64,000 nucleotides of DNA from Corynebacterium glaucum (GTDB lineage Bacteria > Actinomycetota > Actinomycetes > Mycobacteriales > Mycobacteriaceae): the NCBI RefSeq assembly GCF_030408855.1, contig NZ_CP047358.1, forward strand, positions 1,178,001-1,242,000, read 5' to 3'. The number at the start of each line of letters is the position of its first letter. Position 1 is the stretch's first letter. Positions 3,315 to 62,886 of the stretch are shown piece after piece. The notes under the pieces are model-generated. The model had not been told where the DNA came from. It ran no database searches and was given only the letters and a program-made list of their open reading frames with translations. Position numbers and translations under genes: made by a program.

Positions 3315-3325
3315 GCTTATCGACG
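3315..3325 (+). repeat. First of 17 exact copies of the motif GCTTATCGACG
   Basis: Forward copies start at 3315, 4490, 5138, 9679, 18328, 24771, 25952, 27215, 40873, 53874 and 62826. Reverse-complement copies (CGTCGATAAGC) start at 13077, 16674, 37082, 39659, 47114 and 51926. Several copies are preceded by a T-rich run. Those at 13077 and 37082 share 18 identical bases (AGCTTTTCGCTTATCGAC in motif orientation), and the 3315 copy differs from that by one base. No gene product explains the motif. See the findings. Confidence 0.9.
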
Positions 3326-3368
3326 CCCCGCCGCCCCGGTTGTTTGCCGGGTTGGTGGGGCGTTTTGC
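3322..3368 (+). terminator. Rho-independent terminator after rplT
   Basis: A GC-rich inverted repeat (CGCCCC near 3324 with GGGGCG ending at 3362, plus an inner CCCGG/CCGGG pair around a TTGTTTG loop) is followed by TTTTG. The hairpin starts inside a copy of the GCTTATCGACG motif (3315-3325). Confidence 0.75.
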
Positions 3369-3386
3369 GTTGCTAGGCTGGCAGGC

Positions 3387-4043
3387 GTGACGCAGGCGGT
3401 AGAGCTTTTCTTTCCGTTTACAGGCTGGTGGCGTGCCCGCAATAGTCCGGCGCGACGGGTGCCTAGCCACGGCTCGCACATGCTCGGGACCACGTATTCG
3501 ATCGACTTCATCGGGTTGTCTGGCGAGAAGCGGACCGCGCCGTGGAGTTGGTCGACGGCATTCGGTCTGGAGGACCCGGCTGCGTTCCCGTCCTTTGGGC
3601 GCGAGATCCTTGCCCCGGTGGATGGGGTAGTGGTGCAGGCGTGGGACGGGATTGCTGACCACGAGGCGCGGAGGTCGCAGCTCCAACTCGTGCCCTACAT
3701 GCTGGGCCAGCAACGCCGGTTGCGGGAGGGCGGGGTGCGCGCGATCACCGGCAACGCGGTGGTGATTCAGTGCTCGGCAACTGCCGCGTTTGTAGCGCTC
3801 GTGCATCTGAAGCGGGACAGTGTGCGAGTGGCGACGGGAGATACCGTGCGGGTTGGGGACGTGGTGGGGGAGTGCGGCAACTCCGGCAATAGCACCCAGC
3901 CGCACGTGCACGTGCAGGTGACGGACTCGCAGGATTGGGAACAATGCACTGGGCTGCCGATGCTGTTTCGCTCCCGTATGGACGAGTCGACCTGGATGCC
4001 GAAAGAGAATGAAGTTTTCTACGTGGAAGACCCCGTGAATTAA
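3387..4043 (+). CDS. M23-type (LytM-like) peptidase domain protein
   Basis: 218 residues from a GTG start at 3387; there is no ATG near the N-terminus. The M23 zinc site is recognisable: His28/His31 and Asp40 (HGSHMLGTTYSIDF), then the HxH pair at 173/175 (QPHVHVQV). The glycine-rich strand VDGVVVQAWDG matches the LytM fold. M23 enzymes usually cut peptidoglycan cross-links, but no signal peptide or membrane segment is visible. The protein may therefore be cytoplasmic, exported by another route, or started further upstream. It is a single gene between the rplT terminator and a membrane protein gene. The substrate is unknown. Confidence 0.72.
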   Translation: MTQAVELFFPFTGWWRARNSPARRVPSHGSHMLGTTYSIDFIGLSGEKRTAPWSWSTAFGLEDPAAFPSFGREILAPVDGVVVQAWDGIADHEARRSQLQLVPYMLGQQRRLREGGVRAITGNAVVIQCSATAAFVALVHLKRDSVRVATGDTVRVGDVVGECGNSGNSTQPHVHVQVTDSQDWEQCTGLPMLFRSRMDESTWMPKENEVFYVEDPVN

Positions 4044-4121
4044 TAGCGAGGCCAAAAGCCAGGTAATATCTGCACAGCTCCCATAAGAGGACTGAACAAT
4101 TGCGGAAACGGGCGGACGGAT

Positions 4122-5174
4122 ATGGCACAACGGTATGGCAAGCGAGCTCCGGCGGGGGCCGGCTGGGATTTACTCGCAGAGTCGTTGCAGGATGCGATTA
4201 CCGAACCTCAGCAGAAACCCGTTCCGAGCCCGCAAAGTCAGTCCCGCCTGCCCGTCGTCAGCGTGATCCTGGCGATCATCTTGGTCGTCACGTTCCCAAT
4301 CACCATGGTCGTCGTTAACAGCTGGCTTGGTCAGTTCGCGTTAATCATGTGGATCGCCTTCATTCTTGGCGTCGTGGCGCTGGCTACTGTGCAGTTGATC
4401 ATCCGCCGCCGTGAGGACCGCCCGCGCAGCAGTTCGACAGGCGAGGACCGCGATACGGCACAAGCCAAGACACAATCCAAGGTCCGCAAGCTTATCGACG
4501 ACGCAAAGCGCGGCGACTTCTCTGGCTTCAGTTCCATTCCAGAGGCGCGCCCGATCGCAGCCGAGTGCTACGCCAAGCAGCAGGTTGGTCTCGCGATGGA
4601 TGCGGATCTGCCTAACGCGATCCAGACGGCGCACGATGTGGCGGTTTGCGTCTCCGAGAGCGGCGCCGAGATCGTCCGTGCTTCCAAAGAGCAGGCAGTC
4701 GAGACTTTGACGAGCACGTTGACGAGTACTGTCTCCACCCGGTTTGCTGATGCCCTGGCGTCACGGCTCCGCGCCCGAAACAGCGACACTATTGACCACA
4801 TGGTGGCCACCTCAGCCGGTGTCATTGTTGCGGCCACGCACCATTGGCCCGGCACGCTCAGCCTCGACGACGAGGGCCGATTCAGCGCGGGCCCGAACCA
4901 CCCCGCCAATGAGTACCGGCAGGCATCCGTATCCGCACTCGCCGCGATGGCCGACGAGGTATGCAATGGCGAGGTCGCGTTAATCCTGCTGATCATTGCC
5001 GACGGCTTCGTCCTCGGCAGCGGTGTCGAGACCGAGGTCAACGGACACCGCATCATCGCCATTGAGCGCGAGCACGCAGTGGACTTCATCGCCCACGTCC
5101 ACGCACAAGGCACCCTCGCCCAGGTTCCGGATTTGCGGCTTATCGACGAAAGGTCGCCCCAGCTCACCATGTAG
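4122..5174 (+). CDS. Conserved-looking membrane protein of unknown function
   Basis: 350 residues. A polar N-terminus of about 42 residues is followed by two adjacent hydrophobic segments (about 43-66 and 71-94), a basic stop-transfer (IIRRREDR), and a soluble domain of about 250 residues with alanine-rich helices. Two exact copies of the 11-mer repeat lie in it (4490 and 5138), both read as Leu-Ile-Asp. The stop is 11 nt before the methyltransferase gene, so the two are probably cotranscribed. I do not recognise a family. Confidence 0.7.
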   Translation: MAQRYGKRAPAGAGWDLLAESLQDAITEPQQKPVPSPQSQSRLPVVSVILAIILVVTFPITMVVVNSWLGQFALIMWIAFILGVVALATVQLIIRRREDRPRSSSTGEDRDTAQAKTQSKVRKLIDDAKRGDFSGFSSIPEARPIAAECYAKQQVGLAMDADLPNAIQTAHDVAVCVSESGAEIVRASKEQAVETLTSTLTSTVSTRFADALASRLRARNSDTIDHMVATSAGVIVAATHHWPGTLSLDDEGRFSAGPNHPANEYRQASVSALAAMADEVCNGEVALILLIIADGFVLGSGVETEVNGHRIIAIEREHAVDFIAHVHAQGTLAQVPDLRLIDERSPQLTM

Positions 5175-5185
5175 GCTCGGGGGCC

Positions 5186-5998
5186 ATGGCCCTCGACTTT
5201 GCACAACCCTTTACCGAACGCACACCCCGCGTGGTCAATGCGGCGAAGTTAAAGCGTTCGGCGGGGCGTCGAAAAGCAAAAGCTTTTCTTGCCGAGGGTG
5301 AGAATGCTGTGGAAGCTGCTGTGGCTACGGGGGCGGCGACGGACCTGTTTGTGACTGCCGAGGCCGCGGAGCGCTACGAGGAGATCGTGCGTGCCGCCGG
5401 GTATACGGACGTGTACGTCCATGCGATCACAGACAAGGCAGCCGAGCACCTCGCGGATGCGGTGACTCATACCGGCATCTTCGCCGTCTGCAGGCCCGTG
5501 CTGTGGACCGTGCCCGCGATTTTGAAAGGCAAGCCGAAGTTGGTCGCGGTGTGCGTGGAGACTAGCGATCCCGGTAACGCCGGCACCATTATTCGCATCG
5601 CGGATGCAGTGGGTGCCGATGCGGTGATCTTTGCTGGCGACACCGTGGATCCGGAGGCACCCAAGGTGGTGCGTTCCACTGCGGGCTCCCTGTTCCACAT
5701 TCCGGTTGCGCGCGACCGCGAGGTGCGGCGGGTCATCGGTCAGCTCGAGGGAGCAGGCTTAGCGACGCTTGCGACCACCATGTCCGGCGAGTTGAACCTT
5801 GCAGATCCCGGGGATGGGCTGGCGCGGCCGACGGCGTGGCTCTTCGGCAACGAAGCGCACGGGCTGGACCCAGAGGTGCTGGACGCAGCTACCGCGCGAG
5901 TGTCCATTCCCATCCACGGCAATGCGGAGTCTTTGAACCTCGCTACCGCCGCGGCGATCTGCCTCTGGGAATCGTCGAAGGCCCTCGGAGACGGCTAA
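5186..5998 (+). CDS. TrmH/SpoU-family RNA 2'-O-ribose methyltransferase
   Basis: 270 residues with the three SPOUT motifs: ETSDPGNAGTIIRIADA (motif 1), WLFGNEAHGL (motif 2) and SIPIHGNAESLNLATAAAI (motif 3). An N-terminal substrate-binding domain (about residues 15-90) precedes the trefoil-knot domain. Family members transfer a methyl group from SAM to the 2'-OH of tRNA or 23S rRNA; the exact target cannot be read here. In C. glutamicum a gene of this type directly precedes pheS, but here about 5 kb of other genes intervene. Part of its 3' half is duplicated at about 6756-6956. Confidence 0.9.
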   Translation: MALDFAQPFTERTPRVVNAAKLKRSAGRRKAKAFLAEGENAVEAAVATGAATDLFVTAEAAERYEEIVRAAGYTDVYVHAITDKAAEHLADAVTHTGIFAVCRPVLWTVPAILKGKPKLVAVCVETSDPGNAGTIIRIADAVGADAVIFAGDTVDPEAPKVVRSTAGSLFHIPVARDREVRRVIGQLEGAGLATLATTMSGELNLADPGDGLARPTAWLFGNEAHGLDPEVLDAATARVSIPIHGNAESLNLATAAAICLWESSKALGDG

Positions 5999-6645
5999 CC
6001 TTCCGGGGTGAACTTGGCCCCTCCGAGGGTATCGGTGTCGGGGAAGTCTTCGCTGGGAGTGGGAAGGACGTGGCTAGAGACCGTCCTTCCTGAGCGCGGA
6101 TAGGCGGTCGGGTAGTCCGCGCTCAAGCAGTCCTCGACGGTTCTTTCCTCGGTGGCGCGTTTGAGGAAGAGGCCGTTGGCGTCGGCAAGCGACTGTGCCA
6201 GACGTTCTTCTTCGGGGCCGAGGCCGAAGAAGAGGACATCGCAGCCGCCGCGCAGCGTGATTAGAATGCCGCGGCTTTCGATGTAAAGGTTTGTCGTGTG
6301 CGGCCCCTCGTTGAGCAGCGTGCGGCGGACGAGATTGTCGATGTCCTTGACGTCGCTGGAGTGGGTGCCGTCGTCTTCAATAACCGTCGGAGGGTATTCA
6401 TTGCGGCCGCCCTTGCCTGGCGCGATGCGCACGTGATCGGCCCAGGTGTACAGGAGTACCAGCACCACCAACGCGTAGCGGTCGATGAACCTCGGGAGAT
6501 AGTGCTCTTCCAGGTAGGCGTCGAGGTCCAAGAACGACTCCGCCATCACCCGGTGGGGGACGTAGGAAATGGCGTGGGAGGTTGGCTCGCAGAGCAGACG
6601 GTCGATGGCATCCATCTGTTCTTCCGTAAGACGGTTCTTGGGCAC
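5995..6645 (-). CDS. Unknown protein, 216 residues, inside a methyltransferase gene duplication
   Basis: Starts with GTG at 6645 behind AAGGAG (8-nt spacing) and ends overlapping the convergent methyltransferase stop by 3 nt. The sequence (MPKNRLTEEQMDAIDRL) is soluble, apart from a weakly hydrophobic stretch RYALVVLVLLYTWADHV at about 52-68. No domain is recognised. It lies exactly between the intact methyltransferase gene and its truncated copy, so it arrived with, or was trapped by, that duplication. A palindrome resembling the operator of the DJ-1 gene lies about 90-110 bp upstream (6734-6754). Confidence 0.65.
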   Translation of the reverse strand: MPKNRLTEEQMDAIDRLLCEPTSHAISYVPHRVMAESFLDLDAYLEEHYLPRFIDRYALVVLVLLYTWADHVRIAPGKGGRNEYPPTVIEDDGTHSSDVKDIDNLVRRTLLNEGPHTTNLYIESRGILITLRGGCDVLFFGLGPEEERLAQSLADANGLFLKRATEERTVEDCLSADYPTAYPRSGRTVSSHVLPTPSEDFPDTDTLGGAKFTPEG

Positions 6646-6733
6646 TTTGTATGCTCCTTCTGCCTGTTGAAGCGTTCGGCCACACCATACAGGTCACATA
6701 CCCGACGTGAAGATGAGCGGTATCGTCGGCCGG

Positions 6734-8811: not shown

Positions 8812-8903
8812 TTGCGCCTACCGTTCCCCGGTAAGTCACTGACGGCCCTCTCGCTGTATGAACCGCAGGAGGGCCGTTTGTCTTTCTCGGTTGGCCTTTA
8901 CGA

Positions 8904-9555: not shown

Positions 9556-9985
9556 GGGTGATGCGCTGACCAACCTCGTCATGCCCGTTTTCGAGCTGGC
9601 GGCGGCACTGGACAATGCCGCGAGCTCAATCACTGAGGGCTCACAGATCACCCCTGCAATGTGGCAGGTGCTCGGTTTGCTTATCGACGAGCCCTTGACG
9701 GTCGCCGTGATTGCCCGACGCCTCGGCCGCGCGAGGCAGAGTGTTCAGCGTTTGGCGAATGTTGCCGTTGAGACGGGTATCGCCGAGTGGCGTGAGAACC
9801 CGGAGCACAAGCGCTCTCAACTACTTGCGCTTACCTCGCACGGATACGCGGAACTCGCCTCGCTGAGACCCCGTCAGCATCAGTGGGCCAATGAGGTGGC
9901 GGCGAAGCTAGGAGACCAGGACCTGCTACACCTTTCGCAGCTGGTGAAAGAACTCACCGAAGCCATCCGCGACGAAGCAGACTGA
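9536..9985 (+). CDS. MarR family transcriptional regulator
   Basis: 149 residues from ATG 9536, with GGAGG 8-12 nt upstream; a TTG lies one codon earlier. The winged helix-turn-helix is seen at LTVAVIARRLGRARQSVQRLANVAVETGIAEWRENP, preceded by the dimerisation helix and followed by SQLLALTSHGYAEL and a C-terminal helix. MarR repressors respond to small ligands or oxidants. It overlaps the DJ-1 gene and probably represses it from the 8904-8937 operator. Confidence 0.9.
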   Translation: MPGRTPEGDALTNLVMPVFELAAALDNAASSITEGSQITPAMWQVLGLLIDEPLTVAVIARRLGRARQSVQRLANVAVETGIAEWRENPEHKRSQLLALTSHGYAELASLRPRQHQWANEVAAKLGDQDLLHLSQLVKELTEAIRDEAD

Positions 9986-9991
9986 GCCTGG

Positions 9992-11044: not shown

Positions 11045-12402
<1,358 letters not shown>

Positions 12403-12412: not shown

Positions 12413-14953
12413 ATGCTGATTTCCAAGAACTGGATCACCCGCCTGCTGGACAATGCGGGCAACGACGGCTTCAACCCGACCGACGAGGAACTCGACGCAG
12501 GCTTCGTCCGGGTCGGCTTTGAAACCGAAGGATACGAGGCGGTTCCGGAAACCACCGGGCCGCTCGTAATTGGCAAGGTCCTCGAAATCGAGGAACTCAC
12601 CGGGTTCAAGAAGCCGATTCGCTACTGCCAGGTCGACGTTGGTGACGCCAACGGCACCGGCGAGCCGCAGGGCATCATCTGCGGCGCGCGCAATTTCGCG
12701 GAAGGGGACACGGTCGTCGTGTCGCTGCCGGGCGCAGTGTTGCCCGGTGGTTTCGAGATCGCCGCGCGCGAGACCTATGACCACATTTCCAACGGCATGA
12801 TGGCTTCCGCGGCAGAGCTCGGACTCACTGCAAAGAGCGAGGGCATCATCACGCTTGACGACGCCACCGTGGAGCGGTTCAACCTCATCCCGGGCCAGGA
12901 CGCGCGCGAGGTTGTCGGCCTCGCCGACACGGTCTTTGAGGTCAACATCACGCCGGACCGCGGCTACGCTCTGTCCGCGCGTGGGCTGACCCGCGAGATC
13001 GCTTCGGCCTTTGATCTGCGCTTCGGGGATGTGGCGCAGGATCCGGCTGTGGCTGGGGTGGACGTGTCCAAGGTGCCGTCGATAAGCGAAAAGCTGATTG
13101 AGATCGACCTGGAGCCTGCGACGAAGGCGAAGCGATTCGGCCTGCGACTGGTGGAGGGAATTGACCCGCACGCGCAGGCACCGTTTTGGATGCAGCGCGA
13201 GCTGATGCTGGCGGGGATTCGCTCGGTGAACGCGGCGACGGACGTGACCAACTTTGTGATGCTGCTGACCGGGCAGCCGATGCACGCGTTTGACGCGGAC
13301 AAGGTGGCTGGCGGGCTGCGGGTGCACAACGCGGCGGGTGGCGAGGAATTTGAGACTCTCGACCACGCGAAGCGGACGCTGTTGCCGACGGACGTGGTGA
13401 TTTCGGACGACAACGGGATTCAGTCGCTCGCTGCGGTGATGGGTGGAACCTCCTCGGAGATTTCCGATGAGACAGTGAACGTGTACTTCGAGGCGGCAAG
13501 CTGGGACGAGCTGACCGTGGCGAAGACAGCGCGGCACCACAAGTTGTCCTCAGAAGCCTCGCGTCGTTTCGAGCGTGGCGTGGATCCGGCGATCATCGAG
13601 ATCTCGCTGGATATCGCGTGCGCGCTGTTGGTGGAGTGTGCTGGGGGCACGATCTCTGAGCGCGGCACGATCGTGGGCGAGGTGCCTACGCGCGAGCCGA
13701 TCACCGTGGGTCTGGGTCGCCCGAGTGAGCTGATCGGCGTGGAGTACGCGCCGGAGACTGTGGTGCGGCGGCTGGAAGAAGTGGGCTGTGTCGTTGAGGT
13801 GCACGGCGATGAGGCGACTGTTACTCCGCCGACGTGGCGCGGCGACCTCACGGTGCCTGTCGAGCTGATCGAAGAGGTCGTGCGCCTTGAGGGTCTTGAC
13901 GACGTGCCGTCGATCCTGCCGACCCCGGTCGGTGGCCGAGGGCTGTCTCCGCTGCAACGCCGCCGCCGCGCGGTGACGCACGCGCTGGCGTACTCCGGCT
14001 ACGCCGAGATTATCCCGACCCCGTTCATGAAGAACGATGCCTTTGACGTGTGGGGGCTCGACGCGGACGATCCGCGCCGAAACGTGGTCAAGGTGCAGAA
14101 CCCGCTGGACGCCGACTATGGCGTGCTCGGCTCGACCCTGCTGCCGTCCATGCTTGAGGCGATCGGCCGCAACGTGGCGCGCGGGCGCAACGACGTGGCG
14201 GTGTTCTCGGTGGCACAGACCTCGGTGAAGCGTGCGGATGTCTCGCCGATGCCGTCGGTTGCGGCGCGCCCGGATGAAGACGTTTTGCGGGAGCTGGTCG
14301 ATTCCTTGCCGGATCAGCGCCTGCACGCTGCCACCGTGGCGGTGGGCAAGCAGGAGATCGCCGGACCGCTGGGCGCGGCTCGTGACTACACCTGGGCTGA
14401 TGCGATCCAGGCTGCGCGGGTGGCCGCTGCAGCTGCCGGTGTGGTGCTCGAGGTGGAGGCCGCGGAGCACTTGCCGTGGCACCCGGGTCGCTGCGCGGCG
14501 CTGACCGTCGCCTCCGCCGACGGTCAGGATCGCCGAATTGTTGGTTATGCGGGCGAGCTACACCCGCAGATTCTTGAAGCGCTCGAGCTGCCGGCGCGCA
14601 CGTGCGCAATGGAGCTCGACCTCACCGCGCTGCCGCTGGATGAGGTGCTGCCGGCTCCGGTGCTCTCTGCGTTCCCTGCGGTGAACCAAGACATCGCGCT
14701 GGTAGTGGACGAGGAATTACCGGCGGAATCAGTGCGGCGCACTGTTGAGGAGGCCGCGGGCGAGCTCGTCGAGAGCGTGCGCCTGTTCGATGTTTACCGC
14801 TCTGAGCAGCTCGGCGAGGGCAAGAAGTCGCTGGCGTTCGGGCTTGTATTCAGGGCGGGGGACCGCACCCTGACTGAGGACGAGGCTTCCGAGGCACGTT
14901 TGCGTGCTGCGAAGGCAGCTGAGGAGCAGCACGGTGCGGCGATGCGCGGCTAG
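12413..14953 (+). CDS. pheT: Phenylalanyl-tRNA synthetase beta subunit
   Basis: 846 residues with an AAGGAG ribosome-binding site. It has the N-terminal EMAP-like tRNA-binding domain (about 45-150), B3/B4 editing region, B5 domain (about 400-475, VGLGRPSELIG), a catalytic-like core (RRRRAVTHALAYSGYAEI) and a C-terminal anticodon-binding FDX-ACB domain (SAFPAVNQDIALVVDEE). Full length for the family. It carries an exact copy of the 11-mer motif (13077-13087, minus orientation) that uses the rare ATA codon. Confidence 0.97.
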   Translation: MLISKNWITRLLDNAGNDGFNPTDEELDAGFVRVGFETEGYEAVPETTGPLVIGKVLEIEELTGFKKPIRYCQVDVGDANGTGEPQGIICGARNFAEGDTVVVSLPGAVLPGGFEIAARETYDHISNGMMASAAELGLTAKSEGIITLDDATVERFNLIPGQDAREVVGLADTVFEVNITPDRGYALSARGLTREIASAFDLRFGDVAQDPAVAGVDVSKVPSISEKLIEIDLEPATKAKRFGLRLVEGIDPHAQAPFWMQRELMLAGIRSVNAATDVTNFVMLLTGQPMHAFDADKVAGGLRVHNAAGGEEFETLDHAKRTLLPTDVVISDDNGIQSLAAVMGGTSSEISDETVNVYFEAASWDELTVAKTARHHKLSSEASRRFERGVDPAIIEISLDIACALLVECAGGTISERGTIVGEVPTREPITVGLGRPSELIGVEYAPETVVRRLEEVGCVVEVHGDEATVTPPTWRGDLTVPVELIEEVVRLEGLDDVPSILPTPVGGRGLSPLQRRRRAVTHALAYSGYAEIIPTPFMKNDAFDVWGLDADDPRRNVVKVQNPLDADYGVLGSTLLPSMLEAIGRNVARGRNDVAVFSVAQTSVKRADVSPMPSVAARPDEDVLRELVDSLPDQRLHAATVAVGKQEIAGPLGAARDYTWADAIQAARVAAAAAGVVLEVEAAEHLPWHPGRCAALTVASADGQDRRIVGYAGELHPQILEALELPARTCAMELDLTALPLDEVLPAPVLSAFPAVNQDIALVVDEELPAESVRRTVEEAAGELVESVRLFDVYRSEQLGEGKKSLAFGLVFRAGDRTLTEDEASEARLRAAKAAEEQHGAAMRG

Positions 14954-22151: not shown

Positions 22152-23597
<1,446 letters not shown>

Positions 23598-48559: not shown

Positions 48560-49267
48560 ATGGCTACCTACAACCACTTAGCAAATATGCCCGACGGCGG
48601 GTTGATCCTTGCTGTGGACGGTCCCAGTGGCACCGGAAAATCCACGACCTGCCGCGCGCTGGCGAAGCAGCTTGACGCAAAATACATCGACACCGGTGCG
48701 ATGTATCGCGTGGCCACCCTCGCGGTCTTGCGTGCTGGGGTGGATCCGCGAGACACTCCGGCCGTGATCGAGACGACGGCGGAGTTGCCCCTGACAGTGT
48801 CGGACGACCCTGATTCCACGGAAGTGCTGCTCGGCGGCGAGGATGTCTCCGGTGAGATCCGCGGCGCGGAAGTCACCCGCAACGTCTCTGCGGTGTCAGC
48901 TATCCCCGAGGTGCGCGAAAACCTCGTTGCGCTACAGCGCAAACTCACGATGGATGCGCACCGCGCGATCGTGGAAGGTCGCGACATCGGCACGGTCGTG
49001 CTTGTCGACGCCCCCGCGAAGGCGTTCATGACTGCGTCCGCCAACGTACGTGCGCAGCGCCGCTACGAACAAGACATCGCAGCCGGCCGCGATGCCGATT
49101 TCGACACCGTGCTTGCAGATGTGCAGCGCCGCGACGAGCTGGATTCGTCGCGCGCGACCAGCCCACTGCGGCCCGCAGATGATGCCGAGATCATTGACAC
49201 CTCCGACATGACGCGAGACGAGGTTCTGGCCTCCCTGATTCAGGTGATCGAAAGGAGCGCGAAGTGA
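48560..49267 (+). CDS. cmk: Cytidylate kinase
   Basis: 235 residues; its ATG adjoins the rluB stop. P-loop [32 protein letters not shown] and the acceptor motif [12 protein letters not shown] are present. It phosphorylates CMP and dCMP. It overlaps der by 4 nt in GTGA. Confidence 0.96.
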
Positions 49268-51498: not shown

Positions 51499-52286
51499 AC
51501 GAACGCGTCGGTGCGATACGGCAAGGGGAGAAGCTGGCCCGATTCGAAACCGAGCCGCTCGAACAGGTACCACCGCAGATTGGCAGTGACTTTCGCGCGG
51601 GTGGCCTCGCTCGCGCGCAGCCAGTAGGAGCGGGTGCGTGCGAGCGCGAACAGGTCATCAGTGGTCGCGGGCTGGATCCACTTCATACGCAACTCGTCGG
51701 CGAGCCGCCAGGGCGAGGCGACTTCGGGGTAGAACCCTTCGCGGTGCACGTCGCCGGAGTGGCTGATGCGCGACAGGCGCAGCACCCACGGATGCGTCAC
51801 ATCTAATGTGTTCCAGCACAGCAGGAGTTTTCCGCCCGGGGCGAGAACGCGGTCTGCTTCACGGCTCGCTTTTGCTACGTCGACCCAGTGCCACGTTTGG
51901 GCGCAGGTGTAGGCGTCAAACGAGGCGTCGATAAGCGGAAGCTCTTCGGCTGTGCCAAGCATGACCTGTGCCTGGGGGACCTGCTGGCTGCAGACGCGTG
52001 CCATGTCTGCCGAAGGATCGAGCGCAACCACCTGGCGGCCCGGAGCAACGAGGGTTGCGGTGAGCTTGCCGGTGCCCGCACCAACGTCGAGGACGCGCTG
52101 TGCGCTGCTGATCATCGCGGCGACCTGGGAGGGGTAGGAGGGGCGCACGTCGTTGTACTCCCGGCCTCCGCTGGCAAACGCCCCCGCAGAGAACGCGCGG
52201 GCGGCATCGTCGCGAAACCCCGGCGCGTCCTTCGCACTCGGCTTGAAATTGCGCGGGGCTGGACGGTCAGCGGGTTGGTCGGACAT
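51486..52286 (-). CDS. Class I SAM-dependent methyltransferase
   Basis: 266 residues from the ATG at 52286 (MSDQPADRP); a longer open frame runs into the divergent gene. Motif I is VLDVGAGTGKLTATLV, motif II/post-I is VVALDPSADM and a UbiE/Methyltransf_11-like motif LPLIDASFDAYTCAQTWHWVD. The substrate is unknown. Its 3' end overlaps the convergent esterase stop by 13 nt. An 11-mer copy (51926) lies in it and reads LID in the gene's sense. Confidence 0.88.
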   Translation of the reverse strand: MSDQPADRPAPRNFKPSAKDAPGFRDDAARAFSAGAFASGGREYNDVRPSYPSQVAAMISSAQRVLDVGAGTGKLTATLVAPGRQVVALDPSADMARVCSQQVPQAQVMLGTAEELPLIDASFDAYTCAQTWHWVDVAKASREADRVLAPGGKLLLCWNTLDVTHPWVLRLSRISHSGDVHREGFYPEVASPWRLADELRMKWIQPATTDDLFALARTRSYWLRASEATRAKVTANLRWYLFERLGFESGQLLPLPYRTDAFVYER

Positions 52287-53739: not shown

Positions 53740-54099
53740 CTAACCGAGGGTTCCGTCGACGTAGACCCACCGCCCAGCGCGCCGCTCGAAGCGGGAGCGC
53801 TCGCGCTGCACGCCTCCAGGGTGGTGGGCCTCGAACTCCACCACACCTTCGGCATCAAAGGGGCCGCCGCCCTGCTTATCGACGATCACGAGACGCGTGA
53901 ATGGTTCCCCACTCGCGTCGAGGTCCAGCGCCAACGGGCGCGTCTCCTCCGCCCACGTTTGCAAGAGGTAATTGGCGTCACCCACAACGAATGCGCTGTA
54001 CCGTGAGCGCATGAGCGTTTCTGCGGTAGGCGTCGGCTTGCCCTGGTGGTAGGGCTGGCAGCACTGCTCGAACGGCATTCCCGATCCGCAGGGGCACAT
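53740..54099 (-). CDS. YchJ-family protein with SEC-C zinc motif
   Basis: 119 residues. The N-terminal SEC-C-like metal site CPCGSGMPFEQCCQPYHQG is followed by the YchJ/NTF2-like domain (TAETLMRSRYSAFVVGDANYLLQTW). The function is poorly known. Its start overlaps the stop of the hydrolase-OsmC gene by 1 nt, so the two are cotranscribed. An 11-mer copy (53874) lies in it. Confidence 0.85.
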   Translation of the reverse strand: MCPCGSGMPFEQCCQPYHQGKPTPTAETLMRSRYSAFVVGDANYLLQTWAEETRPLALDLDASGEPFTRLVIVDKQGGGPFDAEGVVEFEAHHPGGVQRERSRFERRAGRWVYVDGTLG

Positions 54100-55337
54100 C
54101 AGCGTCGCTTCGCTGCGCTCATGTGCGCCGTGCCGGAGGCCTTGCTCGCTGCGCGGCGCTCTGCCACTGTGGCGGTGCGCACGGTGGTGTCAATGTCGCC
54201 CTTGGCCACGTAGCCGTCGACTGTCGAGGCAGCGCCGGCAGCACGCAGTTGCTCGGCTTCCGCATCCGTCAGATCCCCGTACAAGGTGATCTCGCGGGTG
54301 AAAGTGCCATCTCCGCGGTGGGAGACTTCCACGCGGACGTCGTCAAGCTTCATGCCCTTGGCTGCCTCCCTGACGGCCTGCGAGCAGCTGACGGCGAGGG
54401 CCGACATGTAGAGACCTGTCGAGGTGACACCCTGACCCTTGCCGCCGGCGTTTTTGGCGCGGTCGGTGGTGATGGCCCGGTCGGAGGTGCGCACGACATC
54501 GCCGTACTTCGTGCCGCGGGCGGTGTATGAAATCGCGTTGGTGTCGCCGGTGGCCTCGGGCGCAAACTCCGGCTCGATGTACTGCTGGGCCCAGGAAGCG
54601 ATGATGTCCGCTGCGCGCTGCGCGCTACCGGAGCGGGTGAGCAAGTGATCCGCTTTATCCAAGGCCATGAGCGACTTGGGGTAGCGGGTGAGCTGGAAGA
54701 TGGTCTGCGCGTTGTCGATGCCCACGGTGACATCGATAGGCGAGTGGAGCAGCAGCAGCGGCTTGCGCAGCTTCGGCAAATACGTCTCCGGGTTGGTGTC
54801 GGCTAAGTCCTCGAGGAACTCGCGCGAGATGACGAGCTCGCGCCCGCCGAGCACAACCGGCACGGACCCGTTGGCATCTGCCTCGCCGATCTTGTCCGCG
54901 TAGTGCAGCACCGAGTGCGCCGGGTCAAAGGGCGCTCCGACGGTGGCCACCGCCTTGATCATTTTCTTCAGCTCCGGCCGCGTGGCCGCCTGCAGTGTCG
55001 CGGCACCGCCGAGGGAGTGGCCCATGATGAGCTGCGGGGCAGTGAAGTTCTCCTGCATCCACAGCGCGGCTGCGACGATGTCGTCGACATTCTGCGTGAA
55101 ACTGGTTTCGGCGAACTCGCCCTCAGACTGGCCGAGGCCGGGGAAGTCGAAGCGCAGGGTGGCGATGCCGTGCTCCGTGAGCCGTTTGGAGATGCGGGAT
55201 GCGCCCGGAGTGTGGCGGGAGCCGGCGAAGCAGTGCGCGAAGATTGCATAGGCTTGCGCGGGCGCGTCGGGCCGGTCGATGGTTCCGGCCATCATTTTGC
55301 CGGTGGACGATGGCACCTGGACGTTCAAAGACAGCAA
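54099..55337 (-). CDS. Bifunctional alpha/beta hydrolase-OsmC fusion protein
   Basis: 412 residues. Residues 1-250 are an alpha/beta hydrolase with IFAHCFAGSRHTPG, LRFDFPGLGQSEG, the serine in LIMGHSLGGAATLQ, Asp in HSPIDVTVG and His in KADHLL. Residues 265-400 are an OsmC/Ohr-like domain (VRTSDRAITTDRAKNAGGKGQGVTS; SALAVSCSQAVREAA with the conserved Cys). OsmC proteins reduce organic hydroperoxides. The fusion is found in several bacteria; the joint substrate is not known. Confidence 0.88.
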   Translation of the reverse strand: MLSLNVQVPSSTGKMMAGTIDRPDAPAQAYAIFAHCFAGSRHTPGASRISKRLTEHGIATLRFDFPGLGQSEGEFAETSFTQNVDDIVAAALWMQENFTAPQLIMGHSLGGAATLQAATRPELKKMIKAVATVGAPFDPAHSVLHYADKIGEADANGSVPVVLGGRELVISREFLEDLADTNPETYLPKLRKPLLLLHSPIDVTVGIDNAQTIFQLTRYPKSLMALDKADHLLTRSGSAQRAADIIASWAQQYIEPEFAPEATGDTNAISYTARGTKYGDVVRTSDRAITTDRAKNAGGKGQGVTSTGLYMSALAVSCSQAVREAAKGMKLDDVRVEVSHRGDGTFTREITLYGDLTDAEAEQLRAAGAASTVDGYVAKGDIDTTVRTATVAERRAASKASGTAHMSAAKRR

Positions 55338-55530: not shown

Positions 55531-57822
55531 ATGGGCGCATTCGACTGGTTCTGGAAGGCCATGGGCTCTTCAGCCGAGCGCAACAACAAGAAGTCCAAAG
55601 GCATCGTGGCGGCAGCAGAGGAGCTCATCCCAGAGCTTGCAAAGCTTGACGACGCTGCGTTGGCGGCCGAAGTCCGCGGCACCGTCGCCGCAGGTGCGAT
55701 CGGGGATAAGCCGCGATTTCTGGCGGGGCTTTCCGTCGCCTCGCAGCGAACTCTTGGGATGACGCCGTTTACCGTGCAGAACCAAGCAGTGCTGCGATTG
55801 CTCGAAGGTGATGTGATCCAGATGGCCACCGGCGAGGGGAAGACGCTGGTCGGTGCGATGGCGGCTACGGGTTACGCCTTGACTGGCAAGCGCGTGCACC
55901 TGATCACCGTGAACAACTACCTCGCCGCCCGCGACGCGGAGTGGATGCGCCCGCTCGTGGAATTCTTTGGACTCACTGTCGCTGCGGTGACTGAATCATC
56001 TTCGCGGGAGGAGCGCGTCGCGGGCTACCGCTGCGACGTGATCTACGCGCCGGTGACGGAGATCGGCTTCGACCACCTGCGCGACAATCAAATCACCCAC
56101 CGCGACCAAACGGTTCAGGTTCCCGCGGACGTCGCGCTGGTCGACGAGTCGGACAGTGTGCTTGTCGACGAAGCCCTGGTGCCGCTCGTTCTCGCCGGTT
56201 CCGAGGGTTCACAGCAGGCGACCGGGCAGATCACTGCGGCGGTTGCGCAGCTGGAGGAGGGCGAGGACTACGCCATCGACGCCGAGGGACGCAACGTCTT
56301 CCTCACCGACGGCGGCGCCTCCAAGATCGAGCGCCTCCTCGGCATCGATTCTCTGTACTCGGACGAGCACATCGGCACCACGCTCGTGCGCGTCAACCTC
56401 GCGCTGCACGCCAAGGCGCTACTGGTGCGCGACGTGCACTACATCGTCTCCGAGGGCAAGGTCGCGCTTGTCGACGCCTCGCGCGGCCGCGTCGCCGAAC
56501 TCCAGCGCTGGCCTGACGGTCTGCAGGCAGCCGTGGAGGCGAAAGAAGGCCTCGATGTCTCCGAAGGCGGGCGGATCCTGGATTCCATAACCCTGCAGGC
56601 GCTCATGCGCCGCTACCCAATTGTGTGCGGCATGACCGGCACCGCGGTCGAAGCGACTGACCAGCTGCGTTCGTTCTACGGTTTGCACGTGTCCGTCATT
56701 GACCGGGCGAACGAGCTGGCGCGTTTCGACGAAGCGGATCGGATCTACGCGACTATGGAGGAGAAGAACGCCGCCATCGTCGACGAGATCGCACATATCA
56801 ACGCCACCGGCCAGCCGGTGCTCGTCGGTACGCACGACGTCGCAGAATCCGAGGCGCTCGCAGACGCGCTGCAGGCGCGCGGCATTGAGGTCAACGTGCT
56901 CAACGCGAAGAACGACGCGGAAGAGGCCCGGATTATCGCCGAGGCGGGCGACACCGGGCGCGTGACGGTTTCCACCCAGATGGCCGGACGCGGCACCGAC
57001 ATCCGTCTCGGCGGGGCCGACGAACGCGACCACGACGAAGTTGCCCAGCTCGGCGGCCTCGCAGTGATTGGCACTGCCCGCCACCGCACCGCACGCTTGG
57101 ACAACCAGCTGCGCGGACGCGCTGGCCGGCAGGGCGACCCCGGGTTGAGCCTGTTCTTCGTGTCGCTGGAGGATGACATCGTCAAGGTCGGCGGTGCCGA
57201 TGAACAGGTCACCGCGCAGCCGGATGCCACCGGCCGGATAGATTCGAACCGCATTCAGCAGTTCATTGAACACTGCCAGCGTGTTACCGAAGGTCAGCTA
57301 CTGGAGATCCATTCCCAGACCTGGAAGTACAACAAGCTGCTCGCGGATCACCGCGATATCCTCGACGAGCGCCGCACAGCGCTGCTTGATACCGACGCTG
57401 CATGGCGCGAGCTTGCAAGCCGCCATCCGCAGCGGGCGGCGGAACTGGAGCACCTCCCTGATGGCGTCAAGGTGCAGGCAGCCCGGGAGATCATGCTGTT
57501 CCACCTCGACGACGAGTGGTCCGAGCACCTCGCCATGATGGACGACGTCCGCGAATCTATCCACCTGCGTGCGATCGCCCGGGAGACGCCGATCGATGAG
57601 TACCACCGCATTGCCGTACGGGAGTTCAAGGATCTTGCGAATCGGGCCGTGGACAAGGCAGCTGAGACGTTCGAGACCGTCGAAATCGATGAGCGCGGCG
57701 CACACCTTGCCGACGCGGGGTGGAAGCGCCCCAGCTCGACGTGGACCTACATGGTCTCGGACAATCCGTTGGCAGGTTCGGGCAATTCGGTGCTCTCCGG
57801 CATCGGCAATCTGTTCCGCTGA
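55531..57822 (+). CDS. secA2: Accessory preprotein translocase ATPase SecA2
   Basis: 763 residues, shorter than housekeeping SecA (about 840-900) and lacking the C-terminal zinc linker, as actinobacterial SecA2 does. Walker A is MATGEGKTLVGAM (98-110) and a Walker B-like segment is VALVDESDSVLVDEA. Helicase domain 2 has TGRVTVSTQMAGRGTDI and QLRGRAGRQGDPG. It powers export of a subset of proteins. It precedes odhI in the conserved order. Confidence 0.95.
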   Translation: MGAFDWFWKAMGSSAERNNKKSKGIVAAAEELIPELAKLDDAALAAEVRGTVAAGAIGDKPRFLAGLSVASQRTLGMTPFTVQNQAVLRLLEGDVIQMATGEGKTLVGAMAATGYALTGKRVHLITVNNYLAARDAEWMRPLVEFFGLTVAAVTESSSREERVAGYRCDVIYAPVTEIGFDHLRDNQITHRDQTVQVPADVALVDESDSVLVDEALVPLVLAGSEGSQQATGQITAAVAQLEEGEDYAIDAEGRNVFLTDGGASKIERLLGIDSLYSDEHIGTTLVRVNLALHAKALLVRDVHYIVSEGKVALVDASRGRVAELQRWPDGLQAAVEAKEGLDVSEGGRILDSITLQALMRRYPIVCGMTGTAVEATDQLRSFYGLHVSVIDRANELARFDEADRIYATMEEKNAAIVDEIAHINATGQPVLVGTHDVAESEALADALQARGIEVNVLNAKNDAEEARIIAEAGDTGRVTVSTQMAGRGTDIRLGGADERDHDEVAQLGGLAVIGTARHRTARLDNQLRGRAGRQGDPGLSLFFVSLEDDIVKVGGADEQVTAQPDATGRIDSNRIQQFIEHCQRVTEGQLLEIHSQTWKYNKLLADHRDILDERRTALLDTDAAWRELASRHPQRAAELEHLPDGVKVQAAREIMLFHLDDEWSEHLAMMDDVRESIHLRAIARETPIDEYHRIAVREFKDLANRAVDKAAETFETVEIDERGAHLADAGWKRPSSTWTYMVSDNPLAGSGNSVLSGIGNLFR

Positions 57823-57920: not shown

Positions 57921-58352
57921 ATGAGCGAAAACACGGGCACACCACAGAACCAGGTGGAAACCACCTCGGTCTTCCGCGCTGATCTGTTGAAGGAGATGGA
58001 ATCTGGCGCGGCAGCTGCCCCGGATTCGACCTCCGGCGCAGAGAACCTCCCCGAGGGCGCGGCGCTGCTCGTCGTTAAGCGTGGCCCGAACTCAGGTGCT
58101 CGCTTTCTCCTGGACCAAGACTCCACCACCGCCGGTCGCCATCCGGAAGCAGATATCTTCCTTGACGATGTGACCGTGTCACGCCGCCACGCCGAGTTCC
58201 GCCGGAAGGATGACTCCTACGAGGTAGTTGACGTGGGTTCGCTGAACGGCACCTATGTGAACCGCGAGCCGCGTAACTCCGAGCTGCTCTCCGACGGTGA
58301 CGAGATCCAGATCGGCAAGTTCCGTCTCGTTTTCATCTCCAACGCTAAGTAA
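57921..58352 (+). CDS. odhI: Oxoglutarate dehydrogenase inhibitor (FHA protein OdhI/GarA)
   Basis: 143 residues from ATG 57921, behind GGAGG; an upstream start is less likely. The N-terminal phosphorylation motif VETTSVFRADLL has Thr14 and Thr15, the PknG/PknA-type targets in C. glutamicum. The FHA domain (about 50-140) has TAGRHPEADIFLDD, VSRRHAEF and VGSLNGTYVN. When unphosphorylated it binds the E1 subunit OdhA and blocks 2-oxoglutarate dehydrogenase, directing carbon to glutamate. Confidence 0.97.
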   Translation: MSENTGTPQNQVETTSVFRADLLKEMESGAAAAPDSTSGAENLPEGAALLVVKRGPNSGARFLLDQDSTTAGRHPEADIFLDDVTVSRRHAEFRRKDDSYEVVDVGSLNGTYVNREPRNSELLSDGDEIQIGKFRLVFISNAK

Positions 58353-59890: not shown

Positions 59891-60466
59891 GTGACTACGA
59901 ACACTACCGACACCCCTGTCGAGGATTACGTGGCACCGGTACAGGAGTCGCTGTTCGACATCGGCCCGTCCGACGAGGTCGGCTACCGTGTGCCAATCGC
60001 GTGCCAAGTCGCCGGCATCACCTACCGCCAGCTCGACTACTGGGCTCGCACCAACCTGGTGCGCCCGTCGATCCGCGGTGCAAAGGGCTCCGGCTCCCAG
60101 CGCCTGTACTCCTTCAAGGACATCCTGGTTCTGAAGATCGTCAAGGGTCTCTTGGACACCGGCATTTCGCTCCAGAACATCCGCTTGGCAGTTGACAAGC
60201 TGCGGGACCGCGGTGTCAATGACATCGCTGAGATCACGCTGGTTTCCGATGGTGTCACGGTGTACGAGTGTCGTAGCAACGAGGAGATCATCGACCTCCT
60301 CAACGGCGGCCAGGGTGTCTTCGGCATTGCTGTTCCGCAGATCATGAAGGAACTCACCGGGACCATCTCTGCGTTCCCGTCCGAGCGCGTTATTGAGGAC
60401 GCTGAGCCGGAAAACGTTGTCGGGATCGACGAGCTGGCTGCCCGCCGTCGCCGCAAGACGTCGTAA
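59891..60466 (+). CDS. MerR-type transcriptional regulator (Rv1830-like)
   Basis: 191 residues from GTG 59891; the in-frame extension upstream overlaps the promoter. The winged helix is VPIACQVAGITYRQLDYWARTNLVRPSIRGAKGSGSQRLYSFKDILVLKIVKGLLDTG. The C-terminal half has no recognised ligand domain. Homologues near garA regulate cell growth and division genes in mycobacteria. Single gene with its own promoter and terminator. Confidence 0.9.
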   Translation: MTTNTTDTPVEDYVAPVQESLFDIGPSDEVGYRVPIACQVAGITYRQLDYWARTNLVRPSIRGAKGSGSQRLYSFKDILVLKIVKGLLDTGISLQNIRLAVDKLRDRGVNDIAEITLVSDGVTVYECRSNEEIIDLLNGGQGVFGIAVPQIMKELTGTISAFPSERVIEDAEPENVVGIDELAARRRRKTS

Positions 60467-60489
60467 AGCAAACTACTTTTACTCCCACC

Positions 60490-60520
60490 GCTCCCGCACT
60501 GCTTCGTGCGGGAGCTTTTT
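60490..60520 (+). terminator. Rho-independent terminator
   Basis: A perfect 10-bp stem, GCTCCCGCAC (60490-60499) with GTGCGGGAGC (60506-60515), loop TGCTTC, followed by five T. It ends the MerR transcript. The minus-strand gene also ends here, and on that strand the hairpin lacks a T-tract. Confidence 0.92.
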
Positions 60521-60523
60521 GTC

Positions 60524-61951
60524 CTAAGAGCGGGTGCCGGTCGCTGCGACGATCGCCGCTTCGAGTTCGGCTGCTGAACCCACCTGCTGACGCGATGCGG
60601 CGACTGCTTCGAGAGCCTTGTCGTGCGGCGCGCTGCCGACATGCACGACCGCGATCGAGGTGCCGCTGTCGGCACCGGCTTGAATCGCCTTGGTGAAGAC
60701 GGCGTCGTCCTCGCCGTCTGCAGTACCGGTGGTGATTACTACGATCCGCACCGGGCTTGGGAACGAGCCCACCGCCGCAGTCACGGCCTCGCGGGTTTGC
60801 GGAACGCCGCCAGTAGTCAGGGGGGCAACCGCATTCTTCACCGCGGACGGGCTCGAGGTCATGGCCACGTTGTCGCGGTACCCATTCGTCACACCGACGC
60901 TGAGCGGGGAGGAGTAGTTCCACAGTGCAACGTTGTGTCCAGCGGCTGTGACCTCATCGGCGGCGCGCTCCACACCACGCTTCGCAGACTCGAGATAGGG
61001 CTCCATGGCGCCGGAGGTATCTAGCAGGAACACCGTGTTGCCCACTTGCCCGTCGGCGGCGACGGCGGCATCGTTGGCGTTGGTGGGGGAGTTGCCGTCG
61101 GCGGTCAGCGCCGCTCCTCCGGTGGGCATTGCCGCGGCCCAGACCATCTCGGCGATGACCGGTTGCTTCGGGGTTTCCGCATCGAAACTCTGCGCACCGA
61201 AGCGGGCGAAGTCCTGGCCGGCACGGGCTTGGTTCTCATCCACTGTGGCCCCGGAATTCAGTGGGATGGCGGTGTAGATCACCGAAGCATCGAGTGGGTA
61301 GAACCCAGCGTGGGGCAGGGAGTTTGCTTTCGAGGTGGCCACCCACATCCCCGGCGTCAAGGTAATCCCGTCGACGCTGTCGATTTGTTGATCGGTGAGC
61401 ACGTTAACCGCCGTGCTATCGCTGTCCGCGAGCAGCGACGCGACCACCGCGGAGGATGCTGGCATCTGGGTAGGGAAGACCACCTTCTGCAACGGGACAT
61501 TGGGACCGGGGTTATCTTGGCCGCTCAACCCCACTACGTCCGCGAAGACCTGCTCAGGGTCTGCAACAGCCGCGGTGCGGCCAGAACGGGCAAGTTCCTG
61601 GTGCGCAATCGGAGTATTCGGCGCGATGTAGACCGCGGCGTCGCTCAGCGTCTCCACCAGCTGCGGGCGGATGCAGTAGTCGCGTACCACGGGGTTGCTT
61701 GCCGCGTAAGCGTCGACAAGCTCTTTGCCCACAACCGCGTTCGAGGACGCGACCGGCAGCGTAATTTCGCCAGAGACGCACGAATCGTTGGTGCCGCTTC
61801 CATCGCCCTGGGCTGCGGTTGATTCAGAAGCCCCGCGTTGCCACACAACAAACCAAATCAGGCCGGCGACCAGCGCTAACGCAACAACCAGCGCGGCGAT
61901 AGCGCGGCCAGAAAGCCTGTAGTTGTTTTGCCCGCTCGAATGCCTACCCAT
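60524..61951 (-). CDS. Membrane-anchored SBP-like/VWA protein with altered MIDAS
   Basis: 475 residues from ATG 61951; an ATG at 61999 is the alternative start. An anchor (about 17-38, AIAALVVALALVAGLIWFVV) is followed by a solute-binding-like domain (LPVASSNAVVGKELVDAYAAS ... GLSGQDNPGPNVPLQKVVF) and a C-terminal VWA domain (NTVFLLDTSGAMEPYLESAK). The MIDAS reads DTSGA where DxSxS is expected, so the third metal ligand is missing. It resembles the architecture of the protein at 24843-26435. Confidence 0.8.
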   Translation of the reverse strand: MGRHSSGQNNYRLSGRAIAALVVALALVAGLIWFVVWQRGASESTAAQGDGSGTNDSCVSGEITLPVASSNAVVGKELVDAYAASNPVVRDYCIRPQLVETLSDAAVYIAPNTPIAHQELARSGRTAAVADPEQVFADVVGLSGQDNPGPNVPLQKVVFPTQMPASSAVVASLLADSDSTAVNVLTDQQIDSVDGITLTPGMWVATSKANSLPHAGFYPLDASVIYTAIPLNSGATVDENQARAGQDFARFGAQSFDAETPKQPVIAEMVWAAAMPTGGAALTADGNSPTNANDAAVAADGQVGNTVFLLDTSGAMEPYLESAKRGVERAADEVTAAGHNVALWNYSSPLSVGVTNGYRDNVAMTSSPSAVKNAVAPLTTGGVPQTREAVTAAVGSFPSPVRIVVITTGTADGEDDAVFTKAIQAGADSGTSIAVVHVGSAPHDKALEAVAASRQQVGSAAELEAAIVAATGTRS

Positions 61952-62010
61952 CTTCGCCTTACCGCCTCCGATTGTGCTCGCGTTGCGCGAGCCGTCCATC
62001 CGACCGCAGT

Positions 62011-62886
62011 CTAGTCGCTCAACAGCTGATCCAGCAGGGCGACAAGCTGGGAACGCAGGGGAATTGCCTCCTCCGAGAGTTGCCGCTGCCGGGTGACATA
62101 TTCAGCTTTACCCTCGTTTGTCTCAACCGCAACCACGTCGAAACCTAGGCTGCGGCAATCGTAGGGCGAAGCCTCCATATCGAGTTGTCGCGCCCGCGCA
62201 GCAAGCTCAAAAGCATCAAGCAAGAGCTCCCCGGGCACCACCGGCCCAAGCTTTGCCGCCCACTTGTACAAGTCCATCGTCACATGCACGCAGCCGGGCT
62301 GGTCCTGCGCAATCTGATCTTCGCGCTCAAGCACGGTGAGGTTGAGCGGGCGCGCGGCAGGAGCGAAGAAGCGGTAAGCGTCGAAATGGCTGCACTTAAG
62401 CTGGTGCGACTCCACCACAGCGTCGGTGCCGGCGGCGCCGAGGCGGAGTGGCAGATCGTGGCGCGGACGCTCCGTGCGATACACCATTGCCCACTCATGC
62501 ATGCCAAAGCAGTCAAAGTGGGCGGGCCGGTCCTGCGTGGCCCGAAGCAGCTCGCGGATGCGCACCATTTCGGCGCGCCGTTTTGCGAGGAAAGACTCGG
62601 GGTTGAACCGCACAGTGCCATCCTCCAGCGTTTCGTAGTGGGGATAGCGCGCGTGCGGTGTGGCGGAGGCGTCGACAAGCAAAGCCCCAAGCCCCGGGTG
62701 CCAGGTGCGCAACTGGCTTGCTCTAAAAGGGTAGTAGTCAAAGAGGAAATCCCACACGGGGTGCGCGATCCCGCGGGTGCGCCGCTCGAGGTGCGGCTCA
62801 GTGAAGGCTCGTGCCCGGAGCTCGTGCTTATCGACGGCCTCTTTATACGCCGTCGGTGTATACACCCTCTCGCTATTCCTCTTCAT
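62011..62886 (-). CDS. Conserved actinobacterial protein, often labelled 3-methyladenine DNA glycosylase
   Basis: 291 residues. The family motif GIAHPVWDFLFDYYPFRASQLRTWHPGLGALL is near residues 40-70, and HFDCFGMHEWAMVYR and HQLKCSHFDAYRFF follow. I recognise the family from databases, where it carries the glycosylase label, but I see neither a helix-hairpin-helix nor an AAG-type active site, so the reaction is doubtful. The start overlaps the CNNM gene by 14 nt (cotranscribed). An 11-mer copy lies at 62826. Confidence 0.7.
   Translation of the reverse strand: MKRNSERVYTPTAYKEAVDKHELRARAFTEPHLERRTRGIAHPVWDFLFDYYPFRASQLRTWHPGLGALLVDASATPHARYPHYETLEDGTVRFNPESFLAKRRAEMVRIRELLRATQDRPAHFDCFGMHEWAMVYRTERPRHDLPLRLGAAGTDAVVESHQLKCSHFDAYRFFAPAARPLNLTVLEREDQIAQDQPGCVHVTMDLYKWAAKLGPVVPGELLLDAFELAARARQLDMEASPYDCRSLGFDVVAVETNEGKAEYVTRQRQLSEEAIPLRSQLVALLDQLLSD

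Follow-up and report, generated by a model that had tools for sequence, protein, structure and literature searches.

A gapped sequence word with dialects across Corynebacterium, a candidate DNA uptake sequence

A repeated word in the window and the Corynebacterium glaucum genome

The window analysed here, the whole 64-kb stretch C1:1178001-1242000 of the Corynebacterium glaucum genome (G000; a single contig of 2,529,320 bases), carries 17 exact copies of the 11-mer GCTTATCGACG, 11 on the forward and 6 on the reverse strand. The first-pass annotation of this DNA had reported these copies as a massive excess, and all of them were found where it had placed them, against a mean of 0.04 copies (largest 1) in 100 dinucleotide shuffles of the window. 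The excess is genuine and extends far beyond the window. The 11-mer proved to be the most frequent version of a gapped word, GCTTNNCGACG, usually with NC behind it and often with GAGCTTTTC in front, which recurs across the genus in several dialects and which we consider here as a candidate DNA uptake sequence.

The annotated reading frames were correct. Nine exact copies are read as Leu-Ile-Asp (4490..4500, 5138..5148, 9679..9689, 18328..18338, 24771..24781, 25952..25962, 27215..27225 and 40873..40883 on the plus strand, 51926..51936 on the minus strand), five in antisense as Val-Asp-Lys (37082..37092, preceded by AGAGCTTTTC, 39659..39669 and 47114..47124 on the minus strand, 53874..53884 and 62826..62836 on the plus strand) and two in antisense as Ser-Ile-Ser with the ATA codon (13077..13087, preceded by AGCTTTTC, and 16674..16684, both on the minus strand). 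The single non-coding copy (3315..3325, plus strand, preceded by GAGCTTTTT) starts 9 bases past the end of a gene at 2919-3305 that we take, by eye, to be rplT and, as annotated, abuts a terminator-like structure, a strong hairpin when folded, followed by a T-run; a simple terminator scan of the window reported none at this hairpin. A near-copy with one mismatch does exist, at 27158 and not at 27159 as annotated. A second annotated near-copy, in a 22-bp tandem repeat at 7135, held only in part: the repeat is a perfect tandem pair of GACGAGATCTTTTGCTTATGCT at 7135-7178 that recalls the motif and its flank without equalling them, and its junction reads GCTTATGCTGACG, which is not the motif.

Across the genome the 11-mer occurs 508 times (245 forward, 263 reverse), compared with a single occurrence of the reversed control word. 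The excess also held against the Markov models of order 4 to 6 that the first-pass annotation had proposed for checking it: in a 464-kb sample of the genome (20 evenly spaced 20-kb stretches and the window), 89 copies were observed against 0.31, 1.0, 4.4 and 17 expected at orders 3, 4, 5 and 6, the higher orders already including sub-words of the 11-mer itself. In the same sample, no single-base neighbour of the 11-mer exceeded 7 copies unless the change fell at position 5 or 6, where variation is freer and each variant has 3 to 50 copies. An unbiased scan for gapped word pairs ranked forms and sub-words of GCTTNNCGACG at the top, GCTTNNCGACG itself having 297 copies against 14.2 expected; Markov orders 3-6 predict 12 to 36. 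The two middle bases of these copies were AT in 89, GT in 50, GA in 29, GC in 26, TT in 19 and AA in 17. Genome-wide, GCTTNNCGACG has 1554 copies, 770 on one strand and 784 on the other, or one per 1.6 kb of 2.53 Mb (reversed control, 46 + 57). The T-rich side noted in front of the copies proved real against a frame-matched background, which showed a preference for T at positions -2 to 0 and for C at +13 (0.69 for copies in the main frame) together with avoidance of G at 0, and intergenic copies often take the form GAGCTTTTC-GCTTATCGACG-NC.

Within the window GCTTNNCGACG has 41 copies. Besides the exact 11-mers, the middle pair is GT at 23411..23421 (-), 42561..42571 (+), 49000..49010 (+), 56160..56170 (+), 56466..56476 (+), 61711..61721 (-) and 62670..62680 (-); GA at 1985..1995 (-), 12853..12863 (+), 22322..22332 (+), 48304..48314 (+), 54338..54348 (-) and 55644..55654 (+); GC at 6180..6190 (-), 39461..39471 (+) and 43481..43491 (+); TG at 18859..18869 (+) and 19258..19268 (-); and TT at 5267..5277 (-), AG at 5757..5767 (+), CC at 15459..15469 (+), GG at 16638..16648 (+), AA at 58070..58080 (-) and TA at 60459..60469 (-). 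The copies at 1985..1995 and 5267..5277 were intergenic by the caller used and carry the flanks CTTTTC and AGCTTTT, respectively.

Placement of the 297 sampled copies was close to uniform. Taking the contig start as the origin (the first gene there is presumably dnaA, by recognition only) and placing the terminus near 1.27 Mb from the GC skew, we counted 159 copies on the leading and 138 on the lagging strand (p 0.25), which gives no replichore polarity; spacing was near random (coefficient of variation 1.03) with no clustering. Intergenic DNA makes up 16% of bases and holds 36 of the 297 copies, so there is no enrichment between genes. The alternative of a chromosome-organisation motif, raised in the first-pass annotation, thus gained no support from position, although a uniformly spread binding site would still fit this placement.

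The first-pass annotation had also held that the excess is not a peptide effect, and this was borne out by shuffling synonymous codons within each gene, which keeps the protein and codon usage though not codon pairs, on genes called by a simple script and not by curated annotation. Sampled coding DNA contained 257 copies of GCTTNNCGACG against 19.9 after shuffling (largest of 40 shuffles, 31), a 13-fold excess, and 75 exact copies of GCTTATCGACG against 3.4. All six frames are occupied, most often as CTT-NNC-GAC on the sense strand (166) or as GTC-GNN-AAG (47), and the sense orientation is the commoner in genes (183 against 74 antisense).

Dialects across Corynebacterium

Among 242 Corynebacterium genomes, GCTTNNCGACG (dialect 1) has at least 195 copies in 171 and at most 134 in the other 71, the highest count being that of G199 (1964). 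A de novo scan of 100 kb from each of four low genomes recovered GCTTNNCGATG in G001 and G004 and CGCGNCGTCA in G012. Counted in the 77 genomes low in the 11-mer and in G000, GCTTNNCGATG (dialect 2) reached 159-1184 copies in 17 genomes and 32-87 in the other 61. Dialect 3, CGCGNCGTCAT, was counted in 56 genomes and had 661 copies in G012, compared with 3-47 in each of the remaining 55. In place of GCTTNNCGACG, 17 genomes thus carry GCTTNNCGATG and one carries TGACGNCGCG. Overall, 189 of the 242 carry one of three strong dialects, which, when aligned with their flanks, share one frame, TTNN-YGAYG-N-C: GCTTNNCGACGNC, GCTTNNCGATGNC and, for dialect 3, TTNATGACGNCGCG, in which TT is weaker (TT and A stand at 0.53, 0.74 and 0.64). 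Each exceeded synonymous shuffles in its own genomes (dialect 1, 32 vs 6.5 in G070 and 19 vs 4.1 in G054; dialect 2, 47 vs 4.8 in G001 and 48 vs 2.3 in G004; dialect 3, 66 vs 4.3 in G012), and a peptide or codon effect is rejected for the strong dialects since the shuffling removes the excess. Named species were placed by 21-kb loci, 13 of them from Corynebacterium among the 80 matches listed; C. bouchesdurhonense, C. haemomassiliense and C. urinipleomorphum use dialect 1 and C. sp. J010B-136 dialect 2, and no dialect was found in the 21-kb loci of C. pygosceleis, C. otitidis and C. sp. zg-331.

Three weaker words, which we regard as tentative, were the top words of their genomes and have the same GACG core: CGACGCCAC (16 vs 2.1 after synonymous shuffling in G007, 14 vs 1.6 in G230), GGACGCCGC (43 vs 10.7 in G120) and GCTCGACGC (15 vs 1.3 in G131). 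Genome-wide, CGACGCCAC had 517 copies in G230, 556 in G049 and 354 in G007 (reversed control 103, 151 and 86, respectively) and in 11 of the 56 genomes searched was at least 2.5 times as frequent as the reversed word, although the latter is a poor control here, as G206, G021 and G232 are among the 11 and their samples showed no excess over synonymous shuffles. A separate word, GCTCATCG, stood about 2- to 3-fold above the synonymous-shuffle mean in samples of G043, G001, G131, G049 and G206, probably through Leu-Ile codon-pair context; because such context can leave an excess of this size, the weakest words are in doubt, among them the 4-fold enriched GGACGCCGC of G120. Samples of G043, G206, G232, G021, G018, G142 and G049 held no strong word of the family, and G018, G142 and G049 may hold weak CGACGCCAC.

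Dialect labels clustered on a tree of one protein, the helicase that neighbours the Tad locus, requiring 7 changes against a shuffled mean of 15.6; the tree covers 31 of 33 loci, L120 and L122 being left out for a partial or missing helicase. In this single-protein tree the dialects are congruent with phylogeny. Dialect 2 falls within one clade of 8 rows, one of them (G043) without a dialect, and dialect 1 is found on deeper branches too (G070, L125), as would suit an older origin for it. G043, with 28 copies of dialect 1 and 66 of dialect 2, is a candidate for a recent loss or shift of dialect; a shifted form, GCTCNNCGATG, was tried there and was not convincing (13 vs 5.0). Twelve same-dialect locus pairs, which have loci in common and so are not independent of one another, offered 108 orthologous sites for comparison; the nine fixed bases were all conserved at 54 of these, where the local background would predict 22.0.

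Outside the genus, the 11-mer had 0-7 copies in 140 genomes from 30 other genera of the family. No word comparable with the Corynebacterium dialects emerged against synonymous shuffles in pooled coding DNA of Mycobacterium/Mycolicibacterium (224 kb), Nocardia (133 kb), Rhodococcus (122 kb) and Gordonia/Williamsia (67 kb). The word CGACGNCG stood only 1.6- to 2-fold above synonymous shuffles in the pooled loci of the high-GC genera Mycobacterium, Rhodococcus and Gordonia/Williamsia and in G232, an excess that may be a codon-context effect or a weak motif.

Uptake machinery and mobile DNA

Machinery that uptake of DNA would call for is present in nearly all Corynebacterium genomes examined for it. 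ComEC was detected in 241 of the 242 Corynebacterium genomes, the miss being G185 (90% complete), TadA in 46 of 46 and DprA in 25 of 25 genomes examined. In C. glaucum, comEA (TIGR00426 above cut-off) adjoins comEC, and a Tad locus, ssd-tadA-tadB-tadC-flp-tadE-third pilin, abuts a DEAH-box helicase; TIGR03815, TIGR03816, TIGR03817 and TIGR03819 pass their cut-offs, and we take tadB, tadC and flp to be such by position and our own reading. Being that widespread, ComEC, TadA and DprA do not account for the distribution of the word among species. Two forms of the Tad locus occur in the genus among the matches listed (L095-L109, L110-L114), with TadA either 54-72% identical to that of C. glaucum or 43-50% identical and accompanied by one longer TadB/C-like gene. 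A rule by which the divergent, type B locus goes with absence of the motif was rejected, as it is broken by G230 (type B) and G007 (similarly low TadA score), both with the weaker word CGACGCCAC. In G014, which has a lowered motif count of 495, the ComEC profile match is split in two and the TadA frame is only 261 aa long, possibly through machinery decay or sequencing error. Elsewhere among actinobacteria, Micrococcus luteus needs comEA-comEC and a tad-1 cluster for transformation, according to the available part of the source (PMC8467076).

The word is scarce on all three plasmids whose motif-rich host was identified. Plasmid stretches from three motif-rich hosts held 4 copies of GCTTNNCGACG against about 31 expected at host density, namely 2 vs ~14 in C. 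marinum, 1 vs ~5 in C. halotolerans and 1 vs ~12 in C. comes, whose host genomes, matched by coordinates (G103, C. marinum DSM 44953, 100% identical; G068; and G031), have 797, 465 and 922 copies, respectively; a C. stationis plasmid with 0 copies was left out, its host not being identified. A 12.7-kb metal-resistance island of C. glaucum had 0 copies against 7.8 expected, an illustrative figure given that the gap was picked for lacking exact copies. This island (L220, G000:C1:883400-903399, at about 1700-14400) carries copper and mercury resistance, and parts of it have counterparts, 77-99% identical among the matches listed, on plasmids from Rothia, Micrococcus and several corynebacteria. 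The matching 4 kb of the C. marinum plasmid recur at 95-98% identity in many Corynebacterium genomes (e.g. G040, G146, G009).

A candidate DNA uptake sequence and its rivals

On balance, GCTTNNCGACG(NC) with its T-rich upstream flank is probably the tag of a sequence-selective DNA uptake system, a reading drawn from sequence data. It is a short word with hundreds to thousands of copies, far above chance, dispersed over both strands and without replication polarity. The likeness to DNA uptake sequences proposed in the first-pass annotation is supported, in part, by density, use of both strands, lack of a peptide effect, dialects that follow phylogeny and near-absence on plasmids. Gene-end bias, close inverted pairs and depletion in codon-atypical genes, secondary traits that some uptake sequences show or would be expected to show, were not seen. 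Under the proposed mechanism, a surface receptor, for which the Tad minor pilins (TadE-like and Rv3654c/TIGR03816-like) are candidates, would bind loose double-stranded DNA carrying the word; the TadA-driven Tad pilus would draw the bound DNA through the mycomembrane, ComEA and ComEC would pass one strand inside, and DprA and RecA would recombine it. Tagged alleles would then enter more often than untagged ones, so that the word would accumulate across the chromosome wherever codons allow and stay rare on plasmids and newly acquired islands. A shift of receptor specificity would give rise to a dialect, and loss of uptake or of specificity would let the word decay.

Several results weigh against this interpretation. 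A strong dialect is missing from 53 of the 242 genomes (G170 and G178 among them, not tested for GCTTNNCGATG), and ComEC, TadA and DprA also occur in genomes where none was found (G043, G206, G018, G142, G049), so that the machinery permits the mechanism without proving it. Comparison of Tad pilins, by eye only, revealed no residue-level link between receptor and dialect. Codon-atypical genes of C. glaucum were not clearly poorer in the word (0.57, 0.82, 0.72, 0.59 and 0.61 copies per kb by quintile, Spearman p 0.37), and the conserved rpsL-rpsG-fusA-tuf stretch is also without copies, which indicates that codon constraint too excludes them. Close pairs were few in the 464-kb sample (8 gaps of <100 bases in any orientation, against 18 expected), leaving no sign of inverted-pair terminators. 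The Pasteurellaceae-like bias to gene ends looked for at the suggestion of the first-pass annotation was not seen along gene quintiles (sense 42, 35, 37, 39, 30; antisense 12, 21, 19, 10, 12). Finally, no transformable Corynebacterium was found among the open-literature matches listed.

The main rival is a HIP1-like role inside the cell, in which the word would serve across the genome as a site of binding or modification and be maintained for the sake of a nucleoid-associated protein, a repair system or else an orphan methyltransferase. Such a site would equally account for the even density, the use of both strands, the conservation and the scarcity on plasmids, and the uptake machinery does not discriminate between species; the word, however, is non-palindromic with a 2-base gap, unlike HIP1, and its specificity drifts into dialects within one genus, as for a self-recognition tag. 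Neither point is decisive, and we regard a cytoplasmic site as unlikely, though to be taken seriously. Very improbable is a polar recombination or segregation signal of the Chi kind or of the KOPS kind (FtsK-orienting polar sequence), which would also be short and very frequent but is contradicted by the near-equal counts on the two strands and on leading and lagging DNA; it was rejected for want of any orientation bias relative to replication.

The location of the copies likewise disposes of a transcription-factor site or terminator element, a reading to which the copy abutting the hairpin after rplT lends itself and which the intergenic share and the paucity of close pairs render scarcely credible. 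Just as little credence attaches to the idea that the word is a side effect of codon usage, of peptide motifs, of mutation bias or of a mobile repeat dispersed over the genome. Most coding copies do read Leu-x-Asp or Val-x-Lys, and codon-pair context alone can yield the excess seen with GCTCATCG in several genomes; against this stand the far larger excess over synonymous shuffles, the occupation of all six frames and of non-coding DNA, the lack of a repeat body in the examined flanks beyond weak preferences, and the absence of the word from the sampled genomes of other genera. A by-product is thus contradicted for the strong dialects and may yet account for the weakest words.

Sequence-tagged DNA uptake is described, in the available part of one source, as known only in two proteobacterial families (PMC12616744). 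The DNA uptake sequences of Neisseriaceae resemble the Corynebacterium word in having about 10-12 bases and very many copies scattered within genes too, with dialects that follow phylogeny, as far as the accessible text of that study goes (PMC3630211). The Corynebacterium word differs in being unrelated in sequence, from another phylum and gapped, with a T-rich flank and few close pairs; the Neisseria receptor is ComP, of an ordinary type IV pilus, whereas in Corynebacterium there are candidate receptors only, the machinery is of the Tad type and uptake is inferred. The core of the uptake signal sequence of Pasteurellaceae has flanking T-rich positions, as has the Corynebacterium word. The two also share density, dialects and an orientation that is commoner in reading frames, on the available portions of the sources (PMC12616744, PMC2346458). 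Unlike the Pasteurellaceae signal, the Corynebacterium word has no gene-end bias and an unrelated sequence, and its uptake is again a proposal. We know of no word of this kind in Micrococcus luteus. The Flp/Tad-pilus competence of that organism is similar in pairing actinobacterial comEA-comEC with a tad cluster, and the paper on it uses neither the term 'uptake sequence' nor 'sequence-specific' (PMC8467076). HIP1 of cyanobacteria is likewise a short word repeated at very high frequency across the complete genomes of a clade, but it is a palindrome linked to methyltransferases, whereas GCTTNNCGACG is not its own reverse complement and has dialects (PMC4390886, from the portion available). Consistent with the annotated novelty in corynebacteria, the best matches in the open literature, a scope outside which subscription papers mostly and preprints fall, contained no description of the word or of an uptake sequence in Corynebacterium, and a survey of spaced motifs that included corynebacteria gives, in its accessible part, only CRISPR (clustered regularly interspaced short palindromic repeat) pairs for three of them (PMC5217627).

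Extending the uptake reading to the genus is more tentative. Sequence-specific uptake through the Tad pilus and mycomembrane might be genus-wide and descend from an ancestral word around NGACGNC, with no fewer than three strong dialects (GCTTNNCGACG, GCTTNNCGATG, TTNATGACGNCGCG) and possibly another three that are weaker (CGACGCCAC, GGACGCCGC, GCTCGACGC), each with its own receptor variant, and would then be a third independent origin of such a system and the first outside Proteobacteria. We hold the case for this to be about evenly poised, and lowered our confidence slightly because the control for the weaker words was weaker than assumed. If an uptake sequence is indeed at hand, it would be the first such system outside Neisseriaceae and Pasteurellaceae and would show that such tags arise time and again where an outer barrier stands in the way of DNA, here in mycomembrane-bearing actinobacteria. 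The Tad pilus would be implicated as a sequence-reading machine, dialects would predict barriers to gene flow between corynebacterial groups, and natural transformation of corynebacteria could be put to a direct test, with tagged and untagged DNA as a concrete reagent. Even if its role is not in uptake, a genus-wide word in dialects implies an unrecognised sequence-specific system.

Two further stretches were noted in passing. In C. glaucum, positions 429-12612 of L218 (G000:C1:239300-259299) have a GC content below the genome mean and few motif copies, in a cluster that we take, from our own reading, to be type VII secretion (ESX)-like, with WXG100-like small proteins and one very large protein. 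In G021, GGATNATCC and related words are strongly repeated within 40 kb (L077-L078) and may represent a CRISPR or another local repeat family.

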